A stretch of DNA of 64,000 bases, taken from contig CM048847.1 of the NCBI GenBank assembly GCA_026545225.1, positions 11,030,501 through 11,094,500 on the forward strand. Reading direction: 5' to 3'. The notes under the pieces are model-generated. The model did no database searches and was not told where the DNA came from. It saw nothing but the letters and a program-made list of their open reading frames with translations. Below, piece after piece: positions 1 through 62,455 of this stretch (within the stretch, counting starts at the first letter, position 1; every line of letters begins with the position of its first letter). Source of the DNA: Cornus controversa. Its lineage: Eukaryota > Streptophyta > Magnoliopsida > Cornales > Cornaceae. Made by a program: the position numbers and the translations under genes.

Positions 1-380
1 AGATTCCAAACACAGAAAGTTTTGAGGCTCGAAAGTGAGTGATTCTCAAAGGTGTGGCCAAGTAAATGTTCACTAAGGTGTGTGATTCGATTTAGGGCCC
101 ATGGGGATTAGTTAGGATGGATTTGTGTGCATTCATATGCAAGAATTGGGTTAAGCTTCTACTATGAATGAGGGTAATGAGGGCCTATTGGGCTAAATAA
201 ACAGTATAACCTCCGGTTCTCCGAGAGTTGGAAATCGGGGAGTTATAGCATGGTATCGAACCTTGATACTAATGCATGAGTGAAACTGAGATTGTTCACG
301 GTGTTGAGTGAACGAGTTCACACTCGAGATTCGGGGTCGGTCCGGGGGAGTCCCGGCGGTTCGGGTTTCGGGGCGTGACA
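1..380 (+). repeat. 5' LTR of T1, right part only
   Basis: Nearly identical to 3767-4147 and ends in GTGACA immediately before the primer-binding site. An internal segment at about 248-260 (CATGGTATCGAACC) looks like a second, older primer-binding-site sequence inside the LTR, about 130 bp before its end. The differences from the 3' copy are few by eye, so the insertion is fairly recent among the elements here. Confidence 0.9.
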
Positions 381-384
381 TGAA

Positions 385-396
385 TGGTATCAGAGC
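385..396 (+). other. Primer-binding site (initiator-Met tRNA type)
   Basis: TGGTATCAGAGC lies four bases after the LTR end. This is the sequence plant Gypsy and Copia elements commonly use to bind the 3' end of initiator methionine tRNA. It also fixes the orientation of the element. Confidence 0.92.
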
Positions 397-642
397 TCTA
401 GGTTGGAATACCTAGGGACGAAGGGTGAGACTTGATTTAGTAGTCACTTGAGGTTAAGGATTGGAACATAAGGAATTGAACTTGAGATTGTAAATTGCTT
501 ATGTGGAACTTGATTTATGCTTACGATTTCTTAACATGCTTTTGTGGATTAAATTGACATGGCATGTACAAGCATGATGGATAAGTGTAAGAAGTGTAAA
601 ATTATTGAACTTAAAATTTTTCTTGTTGTGCATATAGAGAGA

Positions 643-1760
643 AATGCGTCCAAGAAGAGTGCGAGACATTGCTGTTGATGCTCCTCAGGAGCCAACAGAT
701 GGAACGTAATTTATGCGTGATATGGCAGATACTATGAGGCGGATGGCTAGGGAAGCCAGAGAAGAGGAGGTTCAGGCATTGCCTAGGGTTACTTTGAGCA
801 GCCAAATAGTGGCAATGAAGGAATATGTGAAATTTAAGCCGCCTACCTTTGATGGCGCGCGTGATCCGCTTGTGGCAGAGGGTTGGATAGACCAAACTCA
901 CAAACTCATGGTTGCTCTTGCAATCGATGAGGATTTGAAAGTGGGAGTAGCAGCGCTTCACTTACAAGGAGAAGCTGATCGGTGGTAGCAATTAATCGGG
1001 AATGTCCACAATACCGAGACCATGGACTGGGAAACCTTTAATGGTTTATTCTTTGACAAATTCTTTTCGACTTTGGTGAGAGACCGGATGAGGCAAGAGT
1101 TCATAGACTTAGTCCAAGGGGACTTGGATGTGATGGGGTACAAGACCAAATTCACATCATTGGCTCATTTTGCCCTGGAGATGGTAATGAACGAGGAGCT
1201 AAAAGTGAAAAGGTTCGTGAAGGGACTCAAAACCTCTATCAGAAAGAGGGTATCCATTTTAGGTCTAAGGGCCTACAATGAAGTGGTTGATAGAGCCTTA
1301 GTGGCTGAGAAAGATGATAGAGACACCCAAAGAATATGGGAGTCTAAACAGCAAATGAAGGGTGCGGGGGCATCTTCGGGTAGCCAGGGACGGAAGAGGC
1401 ATAGGGAGAGCAGATCAGGTTTTTGGGTACAGCAGCAAGCTCGCCCAGTATCTTCATTGGCCTTGCTAACTGGATCCCTATGATCTTCTGTGGAGTGCTA
1501 CAATTGCCATCAGATTGGCCATTTTAGTAGGGATTGCCCCCAAGGACAGACAGTGACATCAGTGCCAGCTGGGTCAGTGAAGGGAGTGGTATGCTTCTAT
1601 TGCAAGTAGCCAGGACACGTTAGGGCTAACTGCCCGCAAAGGTAGGGGACGCAGAGTGGTGCAGGGTCTCAGCAGAGGGCTGGGCAGACAACTGCAGTTC
1701 AGTCTGGCTTTAGGGCATTACCATCACCACAGCCAGCACAGTCAGTACAGGGATCGCGAG
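643..1760 (+). pseudogene. gag remnant with two zinc knuckles (T1)
   Basis: The capsid-type segment contains the Tekay-typical stretches KPPTFDGARDP and LHLQGEADRW, then FFDKFFSTLVRDRMRQEF and a basic region. It is followed by two CX2CX4HX4C-type zinc knuckles (about 1495-1545 and 1590-1640), the nucleic-acid-binding part of the nucleocapsid. In the living family this protein builds the virus-like particle. The proposed start is the ATG at 643, downstream of the primer-binding site. The gene is broken and is read as a fossil. Confidence 0.85.
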
Positions 1761-1834
1761 TAGCGAGGGGTCCCACGCCTGCTTCTAGTCAGCAGTCAGG
1801 GTTACAGGGGACTGGTCAGCAGTCACGGGGCCGT

Positions 1835-2215
1835 GTGTTCACGCTTGCTCCGGCAGAGGATGTACCAGGACCGTCAGTGCTCAGAGGTATTTTTCTGGTT
1901 TCTAGCTCATGGGCTAGGGTGTTGATAGATTCGGGTGCATCACATTCATTCATATCTGTTGCATTTGCTTGTGCCTTGGGGCTGCGGGTGTCATCACTGG
2001 AGTCACCATTGTCCATTGATACACCGGTTGGGGGTAGTGTTACCCTGGATAGAGTGTGTCGGTCTTGCGAGATTGAAGTTGCGGGGCGTCGATTGGTATT
2101 CGACTTTGTGTTGCTAGACATGACCACTTTTGATGTCATTCTAGGTATGGATTGGTTATCTACATTTAGAGCTACAATTGATTGTCTCCGTAGGAGAGTG
2201 ACAGTGTGCACACCC
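1835..2215 (+). pseudogene. Retroelement aspartic protease remnant (T1)
   Basis: A retropepsin-like domain. RVLIDSGASHSFIS holds the catalytic D-S-G, followed by the hydrophobic segment VVLLDM-like and DVILGMDWL, the usual end of this protease in Tekay elements. In the living family it would cleave the gag-pol polyprotein. The same reading continues into the linker that leads to reverse transcriptase, as expected for the family order gag-PR-RT. Confidence 0.88.
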
Positions 2216-2409
2216 GAGGGTGATTGCTTTTATTTTGTGGGAGAGCGGGATGATTTCTATGTTCCGTCTCTATTTGGTTCGTGTGTGAGGGACGGGGTTG
2301 GATATTTCCTAGCTAGCTTATTAGCCGAGGAGGATGAGATTGTGACTAGTGGAGGATTTCCACTGGTGGTTAGAGAGTTTGTGGACGTGTTTCTAGAGGA
2401 CTTGACAAA

Positions 2410-3040
2410 GTTACCTCCGATGAGAGATGTTATGTTTAGCATTGATCTTGCTCCTGGTACCGCGCCTATCTCTATGGCACCATACCGGATGGCACCGGCA
2501 GAGTTGATGGAGTTGAAAGATCAATTGCAAGAATTATTGGATAAGGGATTTGTACGACCTAGTACATCGCCTTAGGGAGCTCCTGTCCTGTTTGCTAAAA
2601 AGAAGGACGAATCTTTACGGTTATGCATAGACTACCGTAAGTTGAACCAAGCAACGATTAAGAATAAGTATCCTTTGCCAAGGATAGATGACTTGTTTGA
2701 TCAGCTTAAGGGTTCGACTTATTTTTCGAAGATCGACTTGAGGTCGGGGTATTATCAGTTGAGGGTAAGGGAAGAGGACATTCTGAAGACAGCTTTTCGG
2801 ACTAGATATGGTCACTATGAGTTTCTAGTGATGCCATTTGGATTGACGAATGCACTAGCAGCGTTCATGGATTTGATGAACCGGATATTCAGGGTGTACT
2901 TGGATAGGTTTTTGGTGGTCTTCGTGGATGACATTCTTGTGTATTCTTCTTCTATGGAAGAGCATGAGATCCATTTGAGGACAGTGCTGCAGACATTGAG
3001 AGAGCACCGTTTGTATGCCAAATTCGAAAAATGTGAATTT
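2410..3040 (+). pseudogene. Reverse transcriptase remnant (T1)
   Basis: The linker LPPMRDVMFSIDLAPGT leads into fingers and palm motifs: [37 protein letters not shown], and the catalytic-type motif [11 protein letters not shown] (about 2920-2950). These are standard Ty3/Gypsy RT motifs. The RT piece is followed directly by LTR sequence, and no RNase H or integrase is seen. It belongs to a broken element and is not a working gene. Confidence 0.9.
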
Positions 3041-4147
3041 TGTGGCTATCCATGCCGGCTTATGGCATGTGACTTCCTTTTTGAATTATAGTTATGTTTT
3101 AGACAAATGTAATTTGGATGTATGTATTGGAGTATAAACTTATTGGGTGTGAAAAGACCACGATTTAATTTATGTAACGCCCATGGTGGCATTTTGTTCA
3201 TTTGATGATGTTTCCATTTTGAATGGGTTGTGTTGTGAAAGAAAGGATTCATTTTGACGTATGAATTCAATTTTGAATGTGATCTTGAGAGTGAGATTGA
3301 TGTTGGAACCTTTCATTATGTTTTTAATCATGTATGAGGGGTTCTAGGATGGTAGAATATTGATTAGGCTTCATGTGGTTCGTGTATAGGGTTGTTGGAA
3401 GTCCCGAGAGGTGCATTTCGATCAATCGAAACCCCCATTTCGATTGATCGAAAGGGTGATGATTTATGGTGATTTTTAGAGTCCAGGTAGGAGGAATTTC
3501 GATCAATTGAAACCCCCATCTCGATCAATCGAAATATTGCAGGTCTGGGGTCCCGAGAAGGTGAAAATCTCGCTAGAATTTTGATCAATCGAGATTTCCT
3601 CTCTATCAATCGAGATTCCATCTCGATCAATCGAAATTACTATTCATAGTTTTTTCAAAAACTTCATTTCGACGTAATTTCTTCGTTTTAGATCGGAATT
3701 GAGTGTGGTTTTTTTTGAACTTGAGTATTTTTGGATTTTCTATCCAATGGTATAAGCCTCAGTTTCAGATTCCAAACACAGAAATTTTGAGGCTCGAAAG
3801 TGAGTAATTCTCAAAGGTGTGGCCAAGTAAATGTTCACTAAGGTGTGTGATTCGACTTAGGGCCCATGGGGATTGGTTAGAATGGATTTGTGTGCATTCA
3901 TATACAAGAATTGGGTTAAGCTTCTGCGGTGAATGAGGGTAATGAGGGCCTATTGGGCTAAATAGACAGTTTAACCTCCGGTTCTCCGAGAGTTGGAAAT
4001 CGGGGAGTTATAGCATGGTATCGAACCTTGATACTAATGCATGAGTGAAACTGAGATTGTTCACGGGGTTGAGTGAACGAGTTCACACTCAGGATTCGGG
4101 GTCGGTTCGGGGGAGTCCCGGCAGTCCGGGTTTCGAGGCGTGAGACA
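3041..4147 (+). repeat. 3' LTR of T1
   Basis: Matches the 5' LTR over its last 381 bases and ends in GAGACA. Its left limit (about 3041) is where LTR-like sequence starts, judged by comparison with the related LTR at 38754-40224 on the other strand. It carries seven copies of a palindromic motif (3416-3636) and an embedded primer-binding-site-like piece at about 4014-4027. Confidence 0.85.
3416..3636 (+). repeat. Palindromic motif array, TTTCGATCAATCGAAA type
   Basis: Seven sites at about 3416, 3438, 3497, 3519, 3579, 3601 and 3621. The best copies read TTTCGATCAATCGAAA, and the second is its exact reverse complement. The others differ by one to three bases. The spacers between sites are ordinary sequence. 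No known feature of plant LTRs explains the array. I infer a protein-binding or structural site set. Confidence 0.8.
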
Positions 4148-4952
4148 ATTATTGTTTTGGGATTATATAAGTGTTGTAGTTACATTACGATATATGTAAC
4201 TTGTGTTTTAATTTGAACCTTGTATGTATAAAGATGAGGTTGGTTAATGGGAATGAATGTGGATTTTGAGATCTTTGTGATTCAAATGTGTGATTTGATA
4301 AATGGGTATGGTGATATAGCATTTCTAAATTATTTGAATGCTATTGGATGAGTTTTAGGTGTTGGAAAGGTTTAGATATGAGTTTTGGGGTGAATTTTGG
4401 TCAAAAAGGTGAAAAAGGGAGTTCCCAGGTTAAACAAGTCGATTTACTTCTTTCTATAAGTCGACTAATTTGGATAGTGCATTTTAGAGCTTTCTAGAGC
4501 AGCAAATAAGTCGACTTATCCATTCAATAAGTCAACTTATTCACTCATAAGTCGACTTACTCTTTTCTATAAGTCGACTAATGCAGAGTTTTCAAAATTT
4601 GAAATAGGCATAACTTAGTCGTTTCAAACCCGAATCAAGTGATTCTTTTTTTGAAATTGAGTATTTTTGGATCATCTATCCAATGGGATAAGTTTCAACT
4701 TTTGATTCCAAACACACAAAGTGTTAAGTCCTGAAAGTGAGTGATTCATGAAAGTGTGGATAAATACAATCCCCACTAAGGTGTTATGATTTAATGTAGG
4801 GCCCATGAGGGTTGGATAAGGTGGAGTTATGCACATCTATGTGTAATAATAGAGTTAAGCTTCCACATTAATTGAGGGTAATGAGGGTTCATTGGGTTTA
4901 ATGGACGGGTTAACCTCCAGTCTTCCGGGAGTCGGGGAATCGGGGCGTTACA
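4148..4952 (+). repeat. LTR of a related Tekay-type element (LTR 2)
   Basis: The final 450 bases follow the T1 LTR in order: a TATCCAATGG block, a TTCCAAACACA block, an AGGGCCCATG block, then a GGGGCGTTACA end. The internal motif array is different: six AAGTCGACTT-like sites at about 4436-4580. No primer-binding site follows, so this is a 3' LTR or solo LTR. Its left part presumably lies beyond the window on the far side of T1. The right end falls inside a Harbinger transposase fragment, so the element inserted there. Confidence 0.8.
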
Positions 4953-5887: not shown

Positions 5888-6112
5888 TGATTGTAATATT
5901 TAGATTAAAATTCTTTTGCTTGTATTATATGCTAGTTTATGGACTTGTTGACTATTGTATTATTATTTCGTTCTATGGTATGGAATAGAATTGTTTCTAT
6001 AATTATCCAAATGTCATATGTGACCACTTTGAGATTGAGGAATAGGATAGTGGTAGTGATTCAATTCCATTACTTTTGCATCGTTTGAACATTGAGATTT
6101 GGAGACTCTAAC
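5888..6112. other. AT-rich spacer, nothing recognised
   Basis: Unique-looking AT-rich sequence between the GRF fragment and the tandem repeats. I see no reading frame, repeat or RNA signal. Confidence 0.5.
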
Positions 6113-6480
6113 GAAGTCTGAAAAAATGTATATTTTCTTTTATTTCTCATTTCAAAAGATTTATACCTAATCTGAATATTCTAATATATTTATTAGTATT
6201 CTAATGCATTTGCTCTACATGTAAGAGAATCTACACAAATTGATATGGTTAACAATGAAGTCTGAAAAAATGTATATTTACTTTTGTTTCTCATTTTAAA
6301 ATATTTATAACTAATCTGAATATTCTAATATATTTATTACTATTCGAATGCACTTGCTTTGCATGTGGGATAATCTACACATACTGATTTGGATAACAAC
6401 AAAGTTTGAAAAAAGTATATTTTCTTTTGCTTCTCATTTCAAATGTTTTATACCTAATCTGAATATTATAATATATATTC
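6113..6480. repeat. Tandem repeat, about 144 bp unit, 2.5 copies
   Basis: Units start at 6113, 6257 and 6401 with GAAGTCTGAAAAAATGTATA or close variants. Each runs through a TTCTCATTTCAAA block and CTAATCTGAATATT. Copies differ at perhaps one base in ten by eye. No coding potential. Confidence 0.85.
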
Positions 6481-6482
6481 TT

Positions 6483-6822
6483 GTGTTTGATAGGTTTAAG
6501 ACTCTATAGATTGGTGGCTATGTGTTTTGTGTTTGCTAGGGTTGATGGGGTTGGGACTTTGTAGATTGGTGGCTATATAGAGTGTGTTTGATGGGGTTGA
6601 AACTTTGCAGTAACTATGTGGTGTGTGTTTGATGGGGTTAGGACTTTGCAGCTTGGTGGCTATGTGGTGTGTGTTTGATGGATTTGGGACTTTGTAGTTT
6701 AGTGGCTATGTGGTGTGTGTTTGATGGGGTTGGAACTTTATAGTTTGGTGGCTATGTGGTGTGTGTTTGATGGGGTTAATAGGGTTGGGAATTTGCAGCT
6801 TGGTGGCTATGTGGTGTAATGC
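6483..6822. repeat. Minisatellite, about 45 bp unit, 7 copies
   Basis: The unit runs roughly GTGTTTGATGGGGTTGGGAC then TTTGCAGCTTGGTGGCTATGTG. Seven copies are visible, two carrying an internal extra GTTGATGGG or GTTAATAGG piece. It directly abuts the left end of element E1. Confidence 0.85.
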
Positions 6823-10639: not shown

Positions 10640-11580
10640 TCGTCAATTCACTACCCTAACTAAAGTACAATCCCATTTTTGAGATGTCTTCCATCAACTT
10701 CCACTATCGGATGGCAATGTTTGCCAAAATACCATGTGATTTTCTGCTCAAGGCATCAACAACCATATTAGCTTTTCCTGGGTGATACTGAAGATCAAAA
10801 TTGTAGTCTTCCATATACTCCACCCCACCTCCTTTGTCTCATGTTAAAGTCCTTCTGCGTGAAAAGATACTTTAAGCTCTTATGATCAAAGAAAGCATCT
10901 AAACTTTTTTTGAATACATTCTTTGGCCTTTCCTAGTTTATCACCGCTTCAATCTTAGAAGTGTCCACTGAAACTCCTCCTTTTGACACCACGTGTCGTA
11001 GGAACTTTACTTCCATTAGCCAAAATTAACATTTTTCTTCTTTGGCATACAAATGGCGCTCCCTCAAAATCTGCAATACTTTCCTCAAGTAGATCTCATG
11101 CTCCTCCATAGAAGAAGAATACATAAGAATGTCATCCATGAATACCACCACCAATCTATCCAAGTACACATTGAAGACTTGGTTCATTAAGACCATGAAC
11201 GTCATTGATGCATTCGTCAAACGAGATAGCATCACTAAAAACTCATAGTAGCCATATCTAGTTCAAAAATATGTCTTCAAAATGTCCTCTTCCCTTACCC
11301 TCAACTGGTAATACCATGTCTTCGGAATGTCTTCCTCCCTTACCCTCAAAGGATACTTGTTCTTAATCATTGTTTGGTTCAACTTTTAGTAGTATATGCA
11401 TAACCTTAAAGATATGTCTTTCTTCTTAGCAAAGAGGATCGGAGCTCCCTAAGGTGATGTACTTGGTTGTACAAATCCCTTATCTAATAACTCTTGCAAC
11501 TAATCTTTTAACTCCTTCAATTCTGTCAGAGCCATACTGTACGGTGCCATAGAGATAGGCGTGGTACCAGGAGCAAGATC
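10640..11580 (-). pseudogene. Reverse transcriptase/RNase H remnant (E1)
   Basis: Pieces of RT are readable, including [26 protein letters not shown]-like sequence around 11090-11190 with the F-M-D-D catalytic-type motif, the upstream [10 protein letters not shown]-type block and the AP-x-S-M-A-P-type N-terminal segment near 11530. RNase H/connection sequence lies around 10640-10960. Heavily decayed. Confidence 0.8.
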
Positions 11581-14687: not shown

Positions 14688-15582
14688 TATGTGTGTGGTT
14701 TGGGGAGTGATGGCACGTTTAAATTAAATCGCCTATTTGCATTGTGATATACATGTATATATAGATTAAAGTCTATGAAAAGTATGCTAAATAATATCTG
14801 TTTAGCTACGTGTTGTCTTGTATGCATATGTGGTTCTTATGCATGATGTTCAGTATATATATATATATATATGTGATTACATATATGGTTGCAGTGATAG
14901 AAATGTATGTTAAGTATTAATGTAACTTTTGGCGGGCATTTGCAAAGCATGACTATGATATGCTAGGTGTCTATATGTTCTTATTACATATGTGGGTGAC
15001 GTAATATATATGTGTTTATATATTGTGATTGGAATGCATGTTAGCTACTTGTAGTGAATATATGCATTGAATGAGAGCATGATCGTATTTATGCTAGTAT
15101 ACGTGCATATAGGACTGATATGCAGGATGTGACACATATACGTGTTTATATGTGGGAATGTGGATATGAGATGCATGCTAACTGTCTTTATATATCGAAT
15201 GTATGCATTGGTTATAGCATGATAAAAATGTGCTGAAGTTGAAGTGTTTTGCATATATGAGGTATTATGCGGGTTTTGAACATGTATGTGCTATATGTGT
15301 TGGAATGTGACGAGAAGCATGCTAAATACTTCTTTTTAGTATTCATAAGCATGGGTTGACGCATGAAAATATTATGCTATGTATATATGCATCTATATTG
15401 CATATCTGGGAGGGAAATGACACATATGTGGTTATATGTGGGTTTATGTGGAGATGAAATACAGGCTATGTACTTTTAACTAGCTTAGGCATTGTGAGAC
15501 ATGAACATTGAATGTTTGGTAGTTATATGTTCGAAATGCATATATGGTGCCATTGTGAGGAAACGGAGAAGTGTGGTTGAGT

Positions 15583-15935
15583 AACCTAGAGTAGGTCAAT
15601 ACTCGGTTGTGGTTGTGGTCATAAAGTGGGCAAGTCACCCAGAGTAGGTCAATACTCGGTCACGGTGAGGGCACTGGAGTGGTTACGTCATCTTGGAGTA
15701 GGTAAATATTCGGTGACGGTGGTCTACTCACCTTGGAGTAGGTAAATACTCGGTGGGGATTCCAAAAAGATGCCCAATCACTTTGGAGTAGGTAAATACT
15801 CAATGATTGTGGTTTACTCACCTTGGAGTAGGTAAATACTCGGTGAGAATTCTAAACAGGGGCCAAGTCATCTTGGAGTAGGTAAATACTCGGTGACGGT
15901 GGTCTATCCACCTTGGAGTAGGTAAATACTCGATG
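15583..15935 (+). repeat. Hairpin array with GAGTA-GGTAAA-TACTC core (LTR A)
   Basis: Eight units of about 36-60 bp, each containing GAGTAGGTAAATACTC or the variant GAGTAGGTCAATACTC. The core has five-base arms (GAGTA/TACTC). Outer arms also pair and change together between units, for example CTCACC with GGTGAG, AATCA with TGATT, and GTCA with TGAC. The same array exists on the other strand in the E2 LTRs. Confidence 0.85.
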
Positions 15936-16796
15936 GCGGAGTTGGAATGGTGTGGGAAAGGTCTCGGTTACATGATTTGGTCAAGAATCATGTTAAGGTT
16001 TTGGGTTGAGTCCAAAAGAGAGACAAGTGCGTGAATTTGCTCACATTACCTATTGTGAAGCATGTTATGTGATTAACGCATCCTTATATATATATATATA
16101 TATATATACGTTGCTTGTGAATGGACATGACATATGTTGGATGTTTATTGCTTTTGAGCAGGTTGTACAGTTTAAATGCATCTTCATTGCATTTGAGATT
16201 TCTACTTGTTGAGTAGGAGATGTGGTGATAGATTTACATTGTTTATGTAAATGCTTAGACATATATGTTCTATATACATATTGATGCTGAATGTTTACAG
16301 CTTTCAAGCATATTGAAAATAATTTCTAAAATCATGTGTAGTGGATTTTGTATGTTCATATGTGCTAGAGTAGCCATATACATCGTTGGTTCATGCATGC
16401 TAGGTAGAGCATGGTCTTAAATATTGTGATATATTTAAGTGCATATATATTTTTGAGAATATGTGAGGATCGACCTGCTGCAGCAGTGATAGTATGGTTC
16501 TACATACCTTGTTGGGCCTTTGAGCTCACCCCCTCCCAGGTTTTGCAAGTATTGCTGATTTCAAAGTCAGTTAGAGGGATCGGTAGTCCCAGTTGCAGAG
16601 GTAGTAAGTAGATTCCTTAGAATCTAATATATGTCCAGGGTAGTGGATAGATAGATGCTTTACAATTGGATTAAATAAAGCGATTATGTTGATTCAGTCC
16701 TTCAATTGTATTTATTCATGTGATGTATGTATATAATACGGACATTCAAGGACTGAGATATGTATTTTTGACTGTATTATGCATGTTGTAGAAATG

Positions 16797-16880
16797 TTGG
16801 GGGGGACACGTGCCCAGAAGTGTCCATTTTTATTGTTAGATATAAATGCTGGGGGGGACATGTGCCCAGAAGTGTCCATA
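16797..16880 (+). repeat. Two-copy direct repeat with inverted arms
   Basis: Two copies of a piece with seven G residues followed by ACACGTGCCCAGAAGTGTCC (second copy ACATGTGCCC...), about 55 bp apart. Each can fold GGACAC against GTGTCC. The first copy contains CACGTG, a plant G-box-like hexamer. It lies near the 3' end of solo LTR A. Confidence 0.75.
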
Positions 16881-19353
16881 TGAATTGTAAAGCAGGTATA
16901 ACATGCCAGGAGCTGATTATTTAGAATGGGTCATGCCCGATTTTCGTGAAAATAATAGGAAATTGAGGTGGCATGATCAGGTGATGGTTATGTCATGAGG
17001 GCGATCTCACGGAGTTCACACCTCGGTTTCTAAGCCTCGGGAACTGGGGCGTGACAATATCCCATGGGTCTGAGATATTCATTTCTACAGATATTTCTCT
17101 CTCTCTAAACTCATTCACTTCATCTCTCTCCATTCTCTATAGATTTTAGGCAAGCTGGAGTATGATTTGAAGGTAGCCGGAGGAGGAAAATGTGCAGAGG
17201 ACGTCAAGGGCTTCGGTTTGAACCAAACAAAGTCCACGTTTCATGAAGTTAAAAAAAATGGGATTTTTAAAAATGGATTTCCAAGCTTAAGATTTGAGGT
17301 AGGGGTGTCTTCTCCTCCCTTTTCATCGATTCTCTAGGATCTTTTGTGATTTATGGTAGTGTTAGCATGGTTTAGGAAGGTAGAAGGTCTTGTCTTGATT
17401 TCCCTTCATGTTTCAACAAGCTAAGCATATTTCTTGTATGATGTATGTGATGTATATGAAGCGTGTTAGTCCTATGCATGTTAAAAAATTGAGTTTTTGT
17501 GGTTATATATGAGATGTATGAGGTATGTGACATGTATAAATGTTATACATGAATAATTGTGTGCTTGACATGCTATTTATGGCTTGATGATGTCTTTCAC
17601 ATGTTATAACTATTGGTTGAGAAGCATGAGGTTCATTAGGATTACCTTAAACCATGACTTGAATTATGTGAATTAAATGCCATATGTAAAAAATGCATCA
17701 AAAGAGTGATTTTCCATGCTAATGCATTTGGTGATTGTTGTTGATGAAAATGCATGCAATGTTATGCCTATGTTGTGATTTCTTAGCATTGGTTGATCTT
17801 GGTGGAAAGTGGAATGATTGTTGGAAATAGAATGAGTATTAAGAAAATTGGACTATAAGCATGGATGCACACAGAAGGTGTGATGAGCTAATATTTCCAA
17901 TTGGTGAAAAATAGACTCCTCTCCTTCAATTGGTAGTCTTCAATTGATGAGGAACCATAGTGAAAATCTTGAGGTTAACGAGTGTCAACATGTGATAATC
18001 TTGGTGGTAGTGAAAATCTTGAGGTTGACGAATTTCAACATGTGATAATCTTGGTGGTGGTGAAAATCTGGAATTATAAGGTTGAAAGGTTACATCATGA
18101 TACTTTGAAATTTGTAAGATTAAGTAGTTGAGTTAGTGGATTCATGTAGAGGATTTGGTTGCAAAATTCAAAACGCGTGTTGCGTGGTTTGTGGTTGTGA
18201 ATGGTTACATGTATACTTTCTAATTGTTACGTTTTACCTCATTGATGACATGAGTGTCCGAGCATGCCATGTAGCGTAAGGATAACATGATGCATATCAT
18301 ATAGGTCAGCGTCGAGTCGATGCTTAGGTGGGTTTGGTCATCTCTACTGAGCCACCGTGGTGCTTACCCCTTTCTCCCCAAACATTTTTATAAGTTAGGT
18401 ACCAATGGGAGACAAAGCATGATTAGCTCAATGGACCTTGTTGAGTTCCTTTTTGGACTTTTCAACCTTTGAGATGTAAATAGATGTCCATGTCGATTTG
18501 TGGCATGTGGAATATGTTAATGATGTTATATTTATATTTGATTCATGTTGATATACTCTAGTTTCAAGTGTAATGATCATATATAGATCATATGTGATTT
18601 ATGAGTTTTGAATGAAAGAAGTTGGTTTTAATTCCACTATGTATAAATTCTTAGATATGATTGTTGGAGATGTGGATTCATGCTTAAAATGATGTTTGAT
18701 GATGTTTTTATCATTTGTACATGTTATAGATGATGTTTGATGATTTTTAGGCCTTCTGGAGGAGTTTTGGACCCTAAAAGTTGAGAATTTTGACCCCCGG
18801 ACAATAGGTTTTGATACTTGCGATGATACATGTTCGATGCATCGTAGCTTCGATGCATCTAACTCCACAGTTTGATGCATCGAAGTTACTATTCACAACA
18901 TTCTCCAAAATCTGCTCAAATTTGAATCGGGCATAACTTCTTCATTTTTAATCAAAATTGAGTGTGATTTCTTTTTTAAATTGAGTATTTCTAAATCCTC
19001 TATCCAATGGTGAGGTTTTCAATTTCAATTTCCAGTCACACGTGGAGTTGAGCTTTAAAAATTTAGGAGTTATGTAATTGTGGCTTAATGTAGAGCTCTT
19101 TGAGGTTGGTTTTGGTTGAGGTTGAGTTAGCACATACATGTGTAAGAAAAGAGTTAAGCTTCCATAGTATTTGAGAGTAAAGAGAGTATATAAGGGATTA
19201 ACGGATGAGTTCACCTTCGATTTCTGGAGGATGGTAATCAGGGTGTGACAACTGGGTATCACAGCGTGATATCAAGTGGAGATTGTGGTTAGGGTATGGA
19301 TGATAAATGTGAGTCACCCTTGGTTTTCAAAGAACAGAAATTGGGATGTGACA

Positions 19354-29150: not shown

Positions 29151-31785
29151 TATCACGCCCTGATTCCCGACTCTCGAAAATTGAGTGTGAACCTATTTGT
29201 CAACCCCAACAGACTCTTTTCTATCTCTCAGAATACTATGGAAGCATATCATTTCAAATGTACACGTATGTACGTGCACTGCAGACCATAATATCCTCAA
29301 TGGGCCCCTCAAACAACCCCTTGCATATCTCTACAAAAATGCAGAATCCTTAAATTTTGATACATCGAAATATGGATTTCGATGCATCGTAGGTTCGATG
29401 CATCATACATATATCGATCATCTATCGACCAAAACACACTCTCGGGACTTTTGACATTTCAAGATCCTGCAAGTGTTTCGATGCATCGTACTAGTCATTT
29501 TGATCCATCTCAAGATCAATGCATCGCACCTGCAGAAAATCCTATAACTATGCAATTGGCCATTTTGGCATTCTAAGTCCCTCCTACTATCAGAGTTCAT
29601 CCATACAATCTTAAAATCATACATAACGGGTAACTACATCGATCACAAGCATTGGATCATAAGTTCACCCAATTTTATGTCTCAAAACCTTAATTCTCGC
29701 ACTTCATACAAGTAACATATCTTATCCATGAGATGAGTCCATACACATAACTATAACATAAAAAGAGGTTATAGTCTTGAAATCCATACATTTCCATAAC
29801 ATACATATGGTCCAAATACATTCCAAGTCCATATAGCTATCAAGTCCTTAGTCATAACAAGAATTTATACATAAAGTCCAAAAAGTTACAAATTCTACTA
29901 TGACTATAACTACATAGATAACGTGCCACAAGCCGACACGGATAGCCAAGTCTCTAATATTCAAAAGGTACACCAAAATGCTACGATAAGCGCTACATGG
30001 ACACTAAAGTCCTATCTGTCATCGGTGCCTTATCTGTAAAAGAGTTCAGGAAAAAGGGGTGAGCACCACGACAACTCAGTAGAGATACCCCAACCTACCT
30101 AAGTTCCGACTCGACACTGACCTATGTAAATGTATGTCACTACATTACATGTATCATCCAACATATACCATGTTCGTTCACAAACAATGCATATATAAGA
30201 ATGTATTAACACATATCATGTTTCATAATTAAAATGTAAGCAATTTCATACACTTGTCTCCCACTCGGACTCAACCTGAAACTCTAACATGACTTTGACC
30301 AATCATATGACCTGCAATGATCCCCACATAAATCAAATACCATCACCGAGTATTTACCTACTCCAAGGTGATTAAACTACCGTCACCGAGTATTTACCTA
30401 CTCCAGGTGACTTGGACCTTTTTTAGAATTTATCACTGAGTATTTACCTACTCCAAGGTGATTAGACCATCATCACTGAGTATTTACCTACTCCAATGTG
30501 AATAGGCCATTTTGTAATAATCACCGACTATTTACCTACTCCAAGGTGATTTGACCACTTTACGACCATAACTATAACCAAGTATTGACCTACTCTAGGT
30601 AATTTAACCACCTTCCCCCATTTCCTCACAACGACCCTATAAATGCATTTCGGACATATAGAGATCAAGTATTCAACATTCATACCTCACAATGCATAAG
30701 CTAATTAATAGAATAAATAGCATAAATTTTTATTTCCACAAAGCCACACATATATTTACCTGTATATGTGAAACCTAGTATATCATGCACATACATCTCA
30801 CTTAAACATAATTTGGTCATACTTCACCAAGCATACATTTTATATGAAAGGATAGCATGCAATTAATTCATATAACAACACATAATGCATACATATTACA
30901 CATTTACACATAATTACACAAGTACACAACGTTAAGCACATAATCATATATGCTCTCATTCTTCCACATTTTCATGCACTTGTCCCTCACATTATGTATA
31001 CTAGAAGATACACATCTATTGCACACAAGAGACTCAAGAGAAGGAGAAAAATACACCTTATCCCACCCCTCTTACATATCTAAATCATGCAATAGACACC
31101 CTTAGCTCTCACTGCTTCACCCGAAACCTTAAAATCGATAATTAAATGAGAGGGAAGACCCCTACCTCAAATTTGAAGGTTGTCCAAGAACTTCTCAATA
31201 TTTACAATGACGTCTACCTTGCCAAACCGCAAAGATGTTCGGTTCAAATGGAAGCACTAGTCGTCCCCTGCGTATTCAGCGAGTCTTGAATCCAAGCTGA
31301 ACGGGTCCGAAATGTAGAGAGAAGGGAGAGTTATAAAGATGAAAACTTTTAGAGAGAGAAAGAGGCGTGAGATATGGCTGAAATATCTTTACCACTGATG
31401 CATATAAAATCTTGGTGCGGGAAATGACCAAAAATGCCCCCGGGCCACTTAACGTACCCTCCCGGCCTTCATTTTTTATTATGAAAACTACTACAGCCTC
31501 GTAATCACTTCGCTCACTCTCTAAACATTCCGTCTAAGCCATTCCCAAAAGTAAATATTTTCCAAAATTTTCCAAATTTCATGGCCCACTAGGACCGCGT
31601 CCTAAGCCCTAGTTTGACCAAAAAGTCAAACTTCTCTAAATGTCCCAAAAACTTACCAAAATCCATAAAAAACTTCCTAAACATGTTCCCCACACTAAAA
31701 ACATGTTTAAAATCACTCAAAATACATTTATGGTAATTATGACACAAAAAATGCAAATTAGCCAAAATTGGTCACGGTCTCTACA
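29151..31785 (-). repeat. 3' LTR of E2 (2.6 kb)
   Basis: On the + strand it runs from TATCACGCCC to GGTCTCTACA and is followed by the polypurine tract. It carries GATGCATC-type palindromes at about 29360-29530 and the hairpin array at 30341-30605. It matches 36803-38753 up to the point where LTR F interrupts that copy. Confidence 0.9.
30341..30605 (-). repeat. Hairpin array with GAGTA-TTTACC-TACTC core (E2 3' LTR)
   Basis: Six units at about 30341, 30381, 30431, 30471, 30519 and 30573. Core GAGTATTTACCTACTC; outer arms differ but still pair: ATCACC/GGTGAT, GTCACC/GGTGAC, AATCACC/GGTGATT. The sister array is at about 37990-38257 in the 5' LTR. The same array in the opposite orientation is in solo LTR A. 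Confidence 0.85.
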
Positions 31786-36802: not shown

Positions 36803-38753
36803 TGTCATAGCCCAGTTCCTGATTCCCAGAAATCGAGTGTGAACCTGTCTGTCAACCACAACAGGCTCTTTTCTATCTCCCAAAATACTACGAAAGCATA
36901 CCATTTCAAATGTACACATATGTACGTGCACTTCAGACCATAATATCCTCAATGGGCCCCTCAAACATCCCCTTGCATCTCTCTATAAAAAAATAAAATT
37001 CTTACATTTCAATGCATCAAAATGAGGATTTCAATGCATCATACATATATCGACCATCTATCAACCAAAACACACTCTCAGGACTTTTGACATTCTAAAA
37101 TCCTTTAGGTTTTCCATGCATCGTACTTGTCATTTCGATGCATCTCAAAATTGATACATCAAAATAGACATTTTGATGCATCAAAATGCCCGAACTGATG
37201 CACTTGCAGAAATCCTACAATTATGCAATTCGCCATTTTCGCATTCTAAGTCCCTCTTAATATCATAGTTCATCCATACAATCTTAAAATCATACATGAT
37301 GGGTTACTAAATCACTCATAGGAATTGGATCATACATTCACCCGATTTTATGTCTCAAAACCTCAATTCTTGCACTTCATACAAAGTAACATATCTTATC
37401 CATGAGATCAGTCCATACACATAAAAAGAGGTTATAGTCTTGAAATCCATACATTTACCATAACATACATATAGTCCAAATACATTCTAAGTCCATATAG
37501 CTATCAAGTCCCTAGCCATTACAAGAATTTATACATGAAGTCCAAAATTTTACAAATTCTACTATGATTATGACTAGATAATGTGACACAAGCTAGCATG
37601 GATAGCCAAGTCTCTAATATCCAAAAGGTACACAAAAATGCTACGATAAGCACTACATTGACACTCAAGTCCCATCTGTCATCAGCACCCTATCTATAAA
37701 AGAGTTTAGGAAAAAGGGGTGAGCACTACGGCAGCTCAGTAGAGATACCACAACCCACCTAAGTGCCAACTCGACATTAACTTATATAAATGCATGTCAC
37801 TACATTACACGTATCATCCAACATATACCATGTTTGTTCACAAACAACACATATATAAGAATGTATTAACACATATCATGTTTCATAATTAAAATGTAAA
37901 CAATTTCATACACTTGTCTCCCACTCGGACTCAACCCAAAACTCTAATATGACTTTGACCAATCGTGTGACCTGTAACACTCCCCACATAAATCTGATAC
38001 CATCATCGAGTATTTACCTACTCCAAGGTGATTAGACCACCGTCACCGGGTATTTACCTACTCTGGGTGACTTGGCCCCCTTTTAAAATTTATCATCAAG
38101 TATTTACTGACTCCAAGGTGATTAGACCGTTATCACCAAGTATTTGCTTACTCCAAGGTGAATAGGCCATTTTGGAATCATCACCGAGTATTTACCTACC
38201 CCAAGGTGATTTCACCACTTCACAACCACAACCAAGTATTGACCTACTCTAGGTAATTTAACCACCTTCCCTTGTTTCCTCATAACAGCCCCAAATATAC
38301 ATTTCAGACATATAGAGATCAAGTATTCAACATTCATATGTCACAATGCATAAGCTAATTAATAGAATACATAGCATGTATTTCCATCTTCACAAAACCA
38401 CACATATATTTACCTATACATGTGAAACCTAACATATCATACACATATTCACATAAATCTCACTTAGCATAATTTGGTCATGTTTCACCAATGCATACAT
38501 TTTCTATGAAAGGATAGCATGCATTTAACTCATATAATAACACATAATCCATACATGTTACAAATAATTACACAAGTACACCACGTTAAGCATATAATCA
38601 TATATGCCCTCATTCTTCCAAATTTTCATGCACTTGTCCCTCATGTCATGTATACTAGAAGATACACATCTATTTCACATAAGAGACTCAATATAATGAG
38701 AAAAATACACCTTATCCCACCCCTTTTACATCTCTAAATCATGCAATACACAC
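36803..38753 (-). repeat. 5' LTR of E2, part, interrupted by LTR F
   Basis: Aligns with 29151 onward to the CATGCAATA(C/G)ACAC block, where LTR F starts. It includes the motif array (about 37005-37205) and hairpin array (about 37990-38257). The missing remainder should lie beyond the nested elements, outside the window. Confidence 0.88.
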
Positions 38754-40224
38754 TGTCACGCCCCGAAATCCAGACCGTTGGGACTTCCCTGGACCGGCCC
38801 AGAATCTTGGGTCACAAACCCGTTCACTCAACCCCATGATCGATCTTAACCACACTTATACGATAGTATCGAGGTTTGATACCATGCTATAATGCCCCGA
38901 CTCCCAACTCCCGACTCCCGGAGAACCGGAGGTGAACTTGTCTATTTAGCCTAATAGACCCTCATTACCCTCATTTAGTGTGAAATCTTAACTCAATTCT
39001 TCCATATAAATGCACACAAATTCACGTTAACCAATCCCCATGGGCCCTACATTGAATCATACACCTTAGTGGAAATTTACTTGTCCACACTTTCAAGAAT
39101 CACTCACTTAACAACATCCAACACTTTTTATATTTGGATTATGAAGTTGAGACTTATCCCATTGGATAGAGAATCTAAAAATACTCAATTAAAAAAAAAT
39201 CACACTCAATTCCGATCTAAAATGAAGAAATTACATCGAATTGAAGTTTGGAAAAATATTGTGAATAGTAATCCCGATTGTGCGAGAATGGGATTTCTAT
39301 TGTGCAAAACTGGCATCTTGATTGTGCGAAAAAAATTCAATTGTGCAAAAATTTCACCCTCTCGGGACCCTAAACCTGCAATATTTCGCACGATCAAAAT
39401 GTGAGTTTCGATTATGCGAAATTACCCTTGTCTAGACCGTAAAATTTACCATAATTCACCACCACTTCGCATAATCGAAATGGGGGTTTCGATTGTGTGA
39501 AATAGGCACTTCACACGATCAAAATGCTCTCCACAGGACCTCCAACAACCCTATACATGGTCTATTTGGAGCCCAATCCTCATTCTATCATCCTCAGACC
39601 TCTCATACATGATCCATAACATACTTTAAGGATTTCAACATCAACTACATGCTCAAAATCATATTCGTAATTGAATCATACACTAAAATGAATCATTCTC
39701 TTTCACAACCACAATATATTCCTCATAAACACATCATCAAATGAACTAAATGCCACCATGGGCATTACATAAATTAAACCGTTGTCTTTTCATACCAAAC
39801 AAGTTTATAATCCAATACATACATCAAAAGTACATTTGACCAAGGTATAACCACAACTCAAAAATAAGTCACATGACACAAGCCGACATGAATAGCCATG
39901 AAATGCATAACATCCAAAAGATAGTAAGATACCTCTAGAATTCCACTTCGACACTCATGTCCCATCCGTCATTAGCGCTTTATTTGTAAAAGAGTTTTAA
40001 TAAAGGGGTGAGCACCACTGCGGCTCAATAGAGATACCACAACCCTCCTAAGTGCTGACTCGACACCGACCTACATGGAATGCATATGAATACACTACAT
40101 GCCACATCCACAATCTCACAACAAGTCAACAAATGCAATTAAAGAAGATTGCATATTTCACGAATCATGTTTGACATATTCAAACATAAAAGCATTAAGG
40201 AAAGTAAATACTCTTTCTCGGTCC
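38754..40224 (-). repeat. LTR 'F', T1-type Tekay LTR; host of the Athila dimer
   Basis: On the + strand it starts TGTCACGCCCCG. Read on the minus strand it follows the T1 3' LTR block by block, including the embedded primer-binding-site-like TGGTATC (about 38872-38893) near its end. It carries a CGCACAATCG-type array where T1 has GATCAATC. No coding sequence is attached on this side. It is interrupted at 40225 by an Athila-type LTR. Confidence 0.85.
39277..39525 (-). repeat. Motif array, TTTCGCACAATCGAAA type (LTR F)
   Basis: About nine sites in both orientations: CGATTGTGCGA-like at about 39277 and 39320, TTTCGCACGATCAAAA near 39383, TTTCGATTATGCGAAA near 39406, CTTCGCATAATCGAAA near 39466, TTTCGATTGTGTGAAA near 39487 and others. 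Site order, orientation and spacers match the T1 array at 3416-3636. Confidence 0.8.
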
Positions 40225-48094: not shown

Positions 48095-48540
48095 AGAAGT
48101 AGAAAAAGTGTGGTTGAGGAATTAAATCGAACACTTGGCATGCACAATTAACTTGTAACCTTCAACCTCCTCTTTTCGGCAATTTTTCCACCCAAATCGA
48201 GCAAGTAATTACATCAAATTGATCCCCCAAACTTGGTCTTCAAAAGCCCTCAAAAAGAATTGCACAATTTCACCAAAGAAAAACTTCACTTACTTTGATG
48301 TTGAACTTGAAAAAGTGAGAGCTTCCTTTGAGAACTAGTGATTCTTGATTCGGTTTTGATGTTGATGATGATGATGATCAATGTTGAATTCTTGTTTAAT
48401 AATCACCAATTGAAGAAATTAATTTTCCGATTGAAGTAGGACTTGAATTGGAGCTCAAAGAGGTAAAAGATGCAAGTAGTAGCAACAAAAGGAGGAGAGG
48501 TGGCTTTTATAGGCCTTAAAAATTCGGGCAGCCCCTCCAT

Positions 48541-48745
48541 GGGCCTGGGCGATCGATCCCCCCTAGGGTGGGAGATCGATCGCCCACCTGCTGGTGGGGA
48601 TCTTCAAGAAATAACATGGGGCGATCGATCCCCCTTGGCTGGGGCGATCGATCCCCCCCTGGATGCCTGTTGGACCCTCCATCGCCTAAGGTCGACCGGG
48701 ACTTGGTATTTTTGAGTCTCCATCGCCCAAGGTCGACCGAGAGCA
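48541..48745 (-). repeat. GATCGATC palindrome array (E4)
   Basis: Four GGCGATCGATCCCCC or GATCGATCGCCC sites at about 48549, 48573, 48619 and 48643, then two CATCGCC(C/T)AAGGTCGACC sites at about 48680 and 48721. Equivalent arrays lie in E5 (43671-43710 with 54435-54600) and E6 (60400-60543) with similar spacing. It lies between the integrase and the extra ORF. Confidence 0.85.
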
Positions 48746-61440: not shown

Positions 61441-62455
61441 ACCTTGCTATTGGGTAAAATTCCCTTCGACGGGTTGTGCTCTATAGGGTCAATTGACCAT
61501 GTTCTTGGAATTTACTTATTCCGTCTTTTTCATTAAAGATCCCCTTTAGAGGCGTTCCTCTGTGGGGTTCCTTGACAATGCTCTCAGGATTAATTCACTG
61601 CACATTATTTTTTTATTAAAGGCCCTCTTTAGAGGTGTGCCCCCGTAGGACTGTTTGACAATATTCTCAGAATTAATTCATCCCACCTTTTTCATTAAAG
61701 GCCCTCTGTTAGAGGTGTGTCCCCCTAGGGCTGTGCCCCCGTAGGGCTATTTGACAATGTTCTCGAAATTAATTCATTCCGTCTTTTTCATTAAAGGCCC
61801 TCTGTTAGAGGTGTGTCCCCGTAGGGCTGTGCCACAGTAGGGCTGTTTGACAACGTTCTCGGAATTAATTCATCCTGCCTTTTTTATTAAAGGCCCTCTG
61901 TTAGAGGTGTGTCCCCATAAGGCTGTGCCCCCGTAGGGCTATTTGACAATGTTTTCGGAATTAATTCATCCCGCCTTTTTCATTAAAGGCCCTCTGTTAG
62001 AGGTGTGTACCCGTAGGGCTGTGCCACCGTGGGGCTGTTTGACAACGTTCTCGGAATTAATTCATCCTGCCTTTTTTATTAAAGGCCCTTTGTTAGAGGT
62101 GTGTCCTCGTAGGGCTATTTGACAATGTTCTCGAAATTAATTCATCTCACTTTTTTCATTAAAGGTCCTCTGTTAGAGGTGTGTCCCCGTAGGGCTGTGC
62201 CACCGTAGGGCTGTTTGACAACGTTCTCAGAATTAATTCATCCCGCCTTTTTTATTAAAGGCCTTCTGTTAGAGGTGTGTCCCCGTAGGGCTATTTGACA
62301 ATGTTCTCAGAATTAATTCATCCCGCCTTTTTCATTAAAGGCCCTCTGTTAGAGGTGTGTCCCCGTAGGGCTATTTGACAATGTTCTCAGAATTAATTCA
62401 TCCCACCTTTTTCATTAAAGGCCCTCTGTTAGAGGTGTGTCCCCGTAGGGTGTTG
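61440..62455. repeat. Tandem array, ~80/97 bp units, about 11 copies
   Basis: The unit runs TTAAAGGCCCTCTGTTAGAG, GTGTGTCCCCGTAGGGCT, (optional GTGCCACCGTAGGGCT), then TTTGACAAYGTTCTCGGAAT and TAATTCATCCYGCCTTTTT. Long and short units differ by the optional ~16 bp duplicated CCGTAGGGCTG module. Units also alternate between two types (TTTGACAATG with TTTTCATT, and TTTGACAACG with TTTTTATT), giving a higher-order pattern. Two diverged units lead the array. On the minus strand it lies upstream of the LTR TATA box. Confidence 0.9.

Follow-up and report, generated by a model that had tools for sequence, protein, structure and literature searches.

Two versions of a dyad-symmetric site array at homologous positions of related Ty3/gypsy LTRs in Cornus controversa, and LTRs that carry both

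Two long terminal repeats (LTRs) in a stretch of 64,000 nucleotides from Cornus controversa (contig CM048847.1, positions 11,030,501 to 11,094,500; hereafter the window) raise the question of how a set of short, scattered motifs can be exchanged for another set while the DNA between the motifs stays alike. The two LTRs, T1 and F, had been called alignable in a preliminary description made from the sequence, and they do align over about 1.1 kb with 76% identity (3034-4143 against 39907-38756). T1 contains seven sites of type A, F nine sites of type B (Table 1). T1 positions 3767-4143 are 95.2% identical over 378 bp to positions 1-378 of the window, a fragment of the 5' LTR of the same element. 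Following this fragment, TGGTATCAGAGC at 385-396 presumably represents a primer-binding-site-like sequence of the tRNA-Met type. The array of T1 begins approximately 375 bp into the LTR of about 1.1 kb, the start of the LTR being approximate. Near-copies of TTTCGATYRATCGAAA with up to two mismatches were found eight times in the window, compared to an expected number of 0.07.

The motif exchange between T1 and F is confirmed, T1 carrying class A and F class B, but the core of the F sites is not uniform. It reads GCACAATC at forward sites and GATCGTGC or GATTGTGC at reversed sites, and several sites are decayed. Constant in F is the combination of one TTTCGCAC half-site with one TTTCGAT(C/T) half-site. 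Similarly, the statement that sites reversed in T1 are also reversed in F applies to the T1 site at 3438 but not to that at 3519, which is forward in T1 while its partner in F (39384-39399) is reversed. The first site of F, which is reversed, is absent from T1, and most A-class LTRs are forward at this position. T1 also lacks the sixth site of F. Related A-class LTRs read TCTCGCAAGA at the sixth position, which looks like an unconverted site that lost its core by deletion.

Table 1. Features of the window that bear on the site arrays (positions of the window)
Feature	Position	Strand	Details
LTR T1 (3' LTR of a deleted Ty3/gypsy element; ends approximate)	3041..4146	+	Carrier of a class A array; alignable to F
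5' LTR of the T1 element, 3' part only	1..380	+	1-378 95.2% identical to T1 positions 3767-4143
Internal remnant of the T1 element	388..3042	+	Aspartyl protease (RVP_2) in ORF 1646-2572
Class A array of T1, 16-bp sites	3416..3636	+	Site starts 3416, 3438 (reversed), 3497, 3519, 3579, 3600, 3621
Conserved LTR block	3721..3750	+	Motif-independent anchor; pattern with 3,144 genome places at up to two mismatches
Third related LTR, part	4434..4950	+	Class D array (AAGTCGACTTAT type) upstream of the conserved block common to T1; sites clear from 4456 onwards and one decayed near 4434
Fourth related LTR	18480..19255	+	TTCGATGCATC (class C) at 18833 and 18850, with a decayed site at about 18870
LTR F (ends approximate)	38755..39907	-	Carrier of a class B array
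Class B array of F, nine sites	39272..39524	-	39509-39524 (reversed), 39487-39502, 39465-39480 (reversed), 39406-39421, 39384-39399 (reversed), 39335-39350, 39316-39331, 39294-39309, 39272-39287

Related Ty3/gypsy LTRs contain up to nine TTTCG-N6-CGAAA sites located roughly 95-350 bp upstream of a conserved block. Each 16-bp site is composed of two facing half-sites of 8 bp. In class A, which reads GATCAATC, a TTTCGATC half faces a TTTCGATT half. Class B is marked by one half-site with GCAC, and a typical site consists of one TTTCGCAC half and one TTTCGATC/T half in either orientation. The patterns were counted in the whole genome (772 Mb, 61 contigs) with the reversed pattern as control. The frame TTTCGN6CGAAA occurred at 16,878 places (control 629), the exact class A sequence at 11,033 (control 0) and class B at 1,654 (control 0). 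Other combinations were much rarer: two B half-sites together (TTTCGCACGTGCGAAA) were detected at only 2 places, and the perfect palindrome TTTCGATCGATCGAAA, one transition away from A, at 77 places versus 11,033 for A. For TTTCGATGCATCGAAA, 147 places were counted, for TAAGTCGACTTA 276 versus 39 in the control. At the reversed B sites 1 and 5, a change of two bases would yield GATCGATC; the A LTRs show GATCAATC there, a change of three bases, and GATCGATC was absent among the 22 cores making up 285 arm-based site calls in A LTRs. The rarity of TTTCGCACGTGCGAAA and TTTCGATCGATCGAAA beside A and B favours, as far as site counts can indicate, reading by a protein over hairpin formation, although some half-site combinations may be scarce in part because other masters amplified.

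To sample LTRs without regard to motif, the genome was searched for the conserved 30-bp block downstream of the array, whose reversed control gave 0 matches against the 3,144 of the block. The sample consisted of 92 LTRs, i.e., 88 of the approximately 100 places listed first (all on contig C1 and exact pattern matches) and the four LTRs of the window (up to four substitutions). According to the dominant motif, 36 LTRs belonged to A, 21 to B (including L071, labelled by hand), 3 were mixed, 8 belonged to D (GTCGAC sites) and 11 + 6 to GATGCATC/GATCCATC, whose labels C and G are unreliable because a single mismatch separates the two motifs; one LTR was of a further kind and 6 were unclassed. Thus, A/B arrays were present in 60 of the 92 LTRs, the other 32 having other motifs or being unclassed. 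In the A and B LTRs, the positions of the sites relative to the block recur from LTR to LTR.

Site-by-site typing was performed with 57 of the 60 A, B and mixed LTRs (445 typed sites), a set first chosen as bearing A or B. L053 (5' part not alignable), L054 (duplicated array) and L071 (5' part not recognisable) were left out. The proposal that each LTR holds one motif version withstood a permutation: 54 of the 57 LTRs were pure (34 A, 20 B), while shuffled site labels gave a mean of 1.28 and a maximum of 7 in 20,000 runs, a count which drops 19 kinds of spacer core (hand-made list) and 18 cores typed neither A nor B. The typing rule for half-sites is loose, one decayed A site in L115 being typed B. 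All three impure LTRs have the same mosaic, BBBAABBAA. Neighbouring sites of the same orientation (12-15 bases between 8-base cores, LTR families pooled) agreed with this in the entire genome. There were 13,063 AA and 949 BB pairs, compared to 106 pairs of B followed by A and 87 of A followed by B (controls for AA, BB, BA and AB: 3, 1, 0 and 0), whereas approximately 980 and 960 mixed neighbours would be expected from the margins under independence; as these counts inherit the relatedness of the LTRs, they describe a pattern and not probabilities. In fact, all concordance counts are inflated because the LTRs are related and A forms a single clade. For the latter reason, the completed switch may have happened only once.

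The assertion that the sites change as a set while the spacers stay alike was examined with 34 A and 20 B LTRs. It is well founded for strong differences, defined by majorities of at least 75% in both classes, which were found in 22 of 137 site columns but only in 4 of 173 spacer columns (Fisher p = 1.5e-5), so that 22 of the 26 strong differences fell into sites. If every majority difference is included, sites and spacers contrast only weakly (29 of 137 site and 24 of 173 spacer columns, p = 0.10). Within the classes, sites were more conserved than spacers (A 0.917 versus 0.841, B 0.929 versus 0.888) and showed higher pairwise identity (A 0.877 versus 0.755, B 0.880 versus 0.822), a contrast that is somewhat inflated since calling sites by arms or by A/B templates favours conserved ones. 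The arm-based calls made no use of the swapped core positions. Between the classes, the order was reversed (sites 0.710, spacers 0.728). On the branch leading to A, the spacers changed as well (0.063 per column, 183 columns). Covariation was also determined for facing arms across a spacer versus the two arms of one site, resulting in phi values of 0.69 versus 0.44 for A and 0.00 versus 0.18 for B. In A arrays such as those of L064, L069 and L024, the inner arms of adjoining sites covary across the spacer (CGAAA/TTTCG or CGAGA/TCTCG).

LTRs bearing both classes are informative about the course of the exchange. In the anchor sample, the mosaic termed M1 (L035, L045, L084) has B at sites 1-3 and 6-7 and A at sites 4-5 and 8-9; L045 lacks one B site and some M1 sites are decayed. 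A targeted search for a B site preceding an A site gave 24 loci, 12 with the conserved block (up to six substitutions) and 12 without. Two of the block-bearing loci were LTRs already sampled (L106 = L045, L109 = L084). Full M1 arrays were found in L110, L112 and L116, while L105, L115, L117 and L122 fit partially, being incomplete or decayed. A second mosaic, M2 (BBBBABBBA), is present in L104, L118 and L119; in L119, the first site is untyped and the array reads BBBABBBA. The patterns nest with respect to A, which occupies sites 5 and 9 in M2, sites 4, 5, 8 and 9 in M1, and then all of them. As these half-converted LTRs exist, the set was probably not swapped at once but step by step. The 12 loci without the block (L099-L103, L107, L108, L111, L113, L114, L120, L121) contain irregular mixtures of A, B and GATTAATC sites, and most of them show weak similarity to the T1, C or D LTRs.

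Trees were calculated with the sites masked. In a tree of spacers and downstream sequence (59 LTRs, no outgroup), A occupied one side of a branch (97/95), the mosaic L084 was located at the base of B, and L035 and L045 were each paired with a B LTR. The tree of array spacers (67 rows) united the 34 A LTRs in one clade (99/98; 100% of 200 bootstrap trees), which was adjoined by the mosaics L122, L084 and L110 (98/98). One step further out were L035, L045, L117, the three M2 rows and the B rows L034 and L070, two B LTRs that sit among mosaics. Altogether, 6 of the 10 M1 rows and 3 of 3 M2 rows lie between B and A. The other four M1 rows (L112, L115, L116 and the long-branched L105) lie beyond B as seen from A, and mosaics therefore occur in more than one place. 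L112, L115 and L116 are taken here as recombinants, because they have upstream flank letters in common with some B LTRs (L076, L082). In a tree of the downstream block including other motif classes (104 rows, midpoint root), the 12 M1 rows (10 distinct) and the 3 M2 rows had several B lineages on one side and 28 of 36 A LTRs on the other, with backbone values of 98/81, 100/85 and 100/95, the bootstrap support being rough. In this tree, the B rows L071, L077, L087, L032 and L093 were found among other classes, and eight A LTRs (L014-L017, L052, L053, L055, L089) were located on B-type downstream blocks. Seven of the eight (L053 left out) group with A in the array-spacer tree. The presence of A arrays on B-type blocks in LTRs that are A by their array spacers supports recombination of LTR segments between copies. 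Since most mosaics lie between B and A even when the sites are masked, the swap probably led from B through two-motif intermediates to A within a single main lineage, accompanied by recombination of LTR segments, although the trees are no proof of this order.

Class A arrays are not confined to the relatives of T1. L001 and L002 carry them in an LTR that seems, by eye, to begin near TGATAAGTGTTCAATTC beside a purine tract. Compared with the whole window, L001 and L002 matched T1 only inside the array, and six sequences from the parts of the T1, F, C and D LTRs outside the array gave no match to them at E 1e-3, a test of limited power as L006 and L102 were also without a match, though the array spacers of L006 look T1-like and L102 resembles L103, which has a weak match. 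The L001/L002 spacer GAAATGAGAT was seen by eye in at least 23 of the approximately 100 AA pairs listed. The occurrence of one 16-mer in LTRs without other detectable likeness is hard to explain by local mutation. L101 had been considered as a B-class member of the L001 family, but was dropped because its similarity of 1,411 bp falls over a neighbouring LTR.

Taken together, we consider it moderately probable that each array is a cluster of sites bound by a sequence-specific and probably dimeric factor, which acts in trans on the LTR, and that the swap proceeded via two-class LTRs by selection on masters. Such a factor would most likely act from a position upstream of the promoter, either activating the LTR or counteracting its silencing. 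One lineage would have exchanged the TTTCGCAC half at eight of the nine positions, while the remaining one, at the sixth site, was apparently destroyed by a small deletion. The lineage would have passed through LTRs that bore both classes and were still multiplying. Recombination between copies may have provided the variation, and the sites within each LTR would have stayed uniform because one master copy after another was selected for matching whichever reader was available. The putative reader would have to separate TTTCGATCAATCGAAA from TTTCGCACAATCGAAA and also from TTTCGATCGATCGAAA. We infer that the reader is a protein, that it is a dimer with a role in transcription, that the steps took place in this order and that it is supplied by the host or in trans and not by the element. 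A sequence-specific reader, which may change together with its motif, had already been proposed in the preliminary description; such a putative reader is still the best explanation of the class uniformity and of the excess of site change.

It is conceivable, but in our view unlikely, that the arrays were shaped without any reader, by a mechanical spread of motifs through template switching, slippage or gene conversion between sites, or between LTRs in the course of reverse transcription, the present LTRs giving a neutral snapshot. Whole site units have in fact been gained or lost, since T1 and L017 lack a unit and L030 and L061 have extra ones. The A arrays on B-type downstream blocks in eight LTRs imply that LTR segments recombine. 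Moreover, the facing arms covary in A as if spacer-centred units had been copied, and the reversed B sites 1 and 5 became the full A core instead of the minimal two-base product. On the other hand, such a spread leaves unexplained why sites are more conserved than spacers within the classes, why an otherwise dissimilar LTR (L001/L002) is filled with the identical 16-mer and why TTTCGCACGTGCGAAA is nearly absent. Copying 16-bp sites without their spacers would also require very short tracts.

Still less probable is a wholesale exchange, in which recombination with another LTR brought in the A array and subsequent recombination of A with B gave the mosaics. A arrays are available in another LTR family, LTR segments do recombine, and 4 of the 10 M1 rows stand apart from the others in the array-spacer tree. 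However, the spacers of A, B and mosaic LTRs are mutually alignable, while L001 and L002 match T1 at the array only. Three switches within about 240 bp would be needed for each mosaic, yet M1 and M2 are nested. The position of the mosaics between B and A, which applies to 6 of 10 M1 and all M2 rows in the array-spacer tree and to all rows in the downstream-block tree, also argues against this assumption.

RNA hairpins or DNA cruciforms, with the swap as a compensatory change that keeps the pairing, are the least probable explanation. In their favour, folding was much stronger in the arrays than in dinucleotide shuffles (mean z of about -7 to -8 in the 7 A and the 7 B arrays analysed and of about -4 to -6 in 7 mosaics), the facing arms covary in A, and the A sites of M1 lie in adjoining pairs (4,5 and 8,9). 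However, any repeated near-palindrome would outfold shuffles, and when sites were flipped at random, 76 or more of the 150 versions scored no higher than the real order in 16 of 17 arrays (exception L012, 25 of 150). Within each class B site, two of the seven arm pairs are broken, and the facing arms of B arrays show no covariation. Moreover, B sites 6-9 all point in the same direction, and the perfect palindrome, which would be best for pairing, is rare. Compensatory pairing as the main driver was rejected on the basis of the orientation-flip control and the scarcity of the perfect palindrome.

In the B-class element L060, ORFs follow each other on one strand in the order gag-like, protease-like, RVT_1, integrase-like and SH3_Tf2-1, the reverse transcriptase and SH3 parts being tested against Pfam and the others assigned by eye. 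The A-class element L059 contains gag (PF03732). The array carriers are Ty3/gypsy LTR retrotransposons, because the integrase is located downstream of the reverse transcriptase and gag and protease upstream of it. L059, which belongs to the element L015/L016, looks non-autonomous, gag being the only such gene among its listed ORFs; it also possesses an internal repeat at 3216-3545 with the unit GACGCAGTTTTGTCTATTGAC. Beyond gag-pol, no sense ORF of at least 90 aa was listed in one pol-bearing copy. A/B arrays are absent from the internal regions of L059 and L060, except for one A match with two mismatches.

Palindromic LTR arrays as such are already known from Sireviruses; the unusual part is the transitional series. 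The Sirevirus RM boxes are dyad-symmetric motifs of about 10-20 bp with a different consensus in each element and a proposed regulatory role; eight or more copies are present, located mainly in the upper half of the LTR (Bousios et al. 2010, PMC2829016, as far as its text was available). The arrays described here resemble them in comprising at least eight dyad-symmetric copies, with 8-9 sites in many A/B LTRs and fewer in some (7 in T1, 6 in L024 and L046). Unlike Sireviruses, which are Ty1/copia elements, the carriers are Ty3/gypsy by domain order and Pfam matches, and the core of A and B is TTTCG...CGAAA instead of CGG-CCG. In the available part of PMC2829016, neither a site-by-site swap in alignable LTRs nor intermediates are described. 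The array region of a related LTR, L031, contains TTTCGGTCGACCGAAA/TTTCAGTCGACTGAAA-like sites that are close to the Vitis Sirevirus RM CGGTCGACCG (Table 3 of that paper, seen in the same part). For palindrome clusters in the LTRs of maize Sireviruses, a palindromic regulatory region with strong predicted structure and small RNAs was reported (Bousios et al. 2016 as cited in PMC10760457 and PMC5311732), and a single palindrome ranks first among the structured motifs of both the Copia elements and the Helitrons of maize (PMC10760457), a parallel to the occurrence of motif A in dissimilar LTRs. These palindromes are likewise clustered, located in LTRs and strongly structured by prediction; the available portions of the two citing articles describe no class replacement at homologous sites.

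The VANC proteins of Arabidopsis VANDAL transposons, named as the closest parallel in the preliminary description, are comparable only in that the system would work in a similar way. VANDALs possess dense short anti-silencing motifs in their non-coding parts which differ between families (Hosaka et al. 2017, PMC5735166; EMBO Rep 2023, PMC10398659), just as classes A-D differ between related LTRs and form a dense short motif in non-coding DNA. In addition, the VANC6 motif is also found in the unrelated element AT9TSD1 (PMC5735166), as motif A is found here in a second LTR. By contrast, VANDALs are Mutator-like DNA transposons with an encoded reader, while the Cornus carrier is an LTR element with reverse transcriptase and gag, no extra sense ORF of at least 90 aa listed in the copy mentioned above, and a putative reader. 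Furthermore, VANDAL motifs lie in tandem repeats, with one orientation for VANC21, according to the sections of these papers that were accessible, whereas the sites studied here are dispersed between conserved spacers in both orientations. In HERVH LTR7 subfamilies, transcription-factor motif modules differ by point mutation, duplication and recombination (Carter et al. 2022, PMC8912925). Judging from the accessible text, different modules are gained or exchanged there, while in Cornus a single kind of site changes its version at the same, constantly spaced positions. In the open-licence PMC literature, as far as its texts were available, no case was seen in which all motifs at homologous sites of an LTR had been replaced via surviving mosaics; this does not show that no such case is in print.

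More tentatively, it is possible, albeit doubtful, that unrelated lineages of LTR retrotransposons make use of a trans factor, or of a small family of factors, which the genome provides, and that each lineage rewrites its whole array through two-motif intermediates when the specificity or the availability of the factor shifts. If this is true, the genome holds a fossil series of binding-site turnover. A change in the specificity of a binding-site cluster without loss of function is usually deduced from end points only; in this genome, both end points and two intermediate types have survived as copies whose sites lie at homologous positions between alignable spacers. As a result, the order of site changes, the number of copies per state and the fitness of mixed arrays are measurable. 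A motif common to LTRs without other detectable likeness would also offer a route to a factor that may control many retrotransposons in this genome.

The window contains further repeats. At 48540-48740, repeated GGCGATCGATCC and AAGGTCGACCG motifs were noticed, possibly a further motif class. A region that is present in three copies (15433-16091, 30191-30754 and 37851-38408) has internal repeats of the unit TACCTACTCCAAGG with a spacing of 40-90 bp. Positions 61484-62450 constitute a tandem array with a unit spacing of about 96/192 bp, whose units are roughly 77-83% alike. Finally, two adjoining minisatellites are located at 6110-6817, one with ATTCAGATTAG spaced about 144 bp apart and one with ATAGCCACCAA/CCATCAAACAC units spaced mostly about 46 bp apart.
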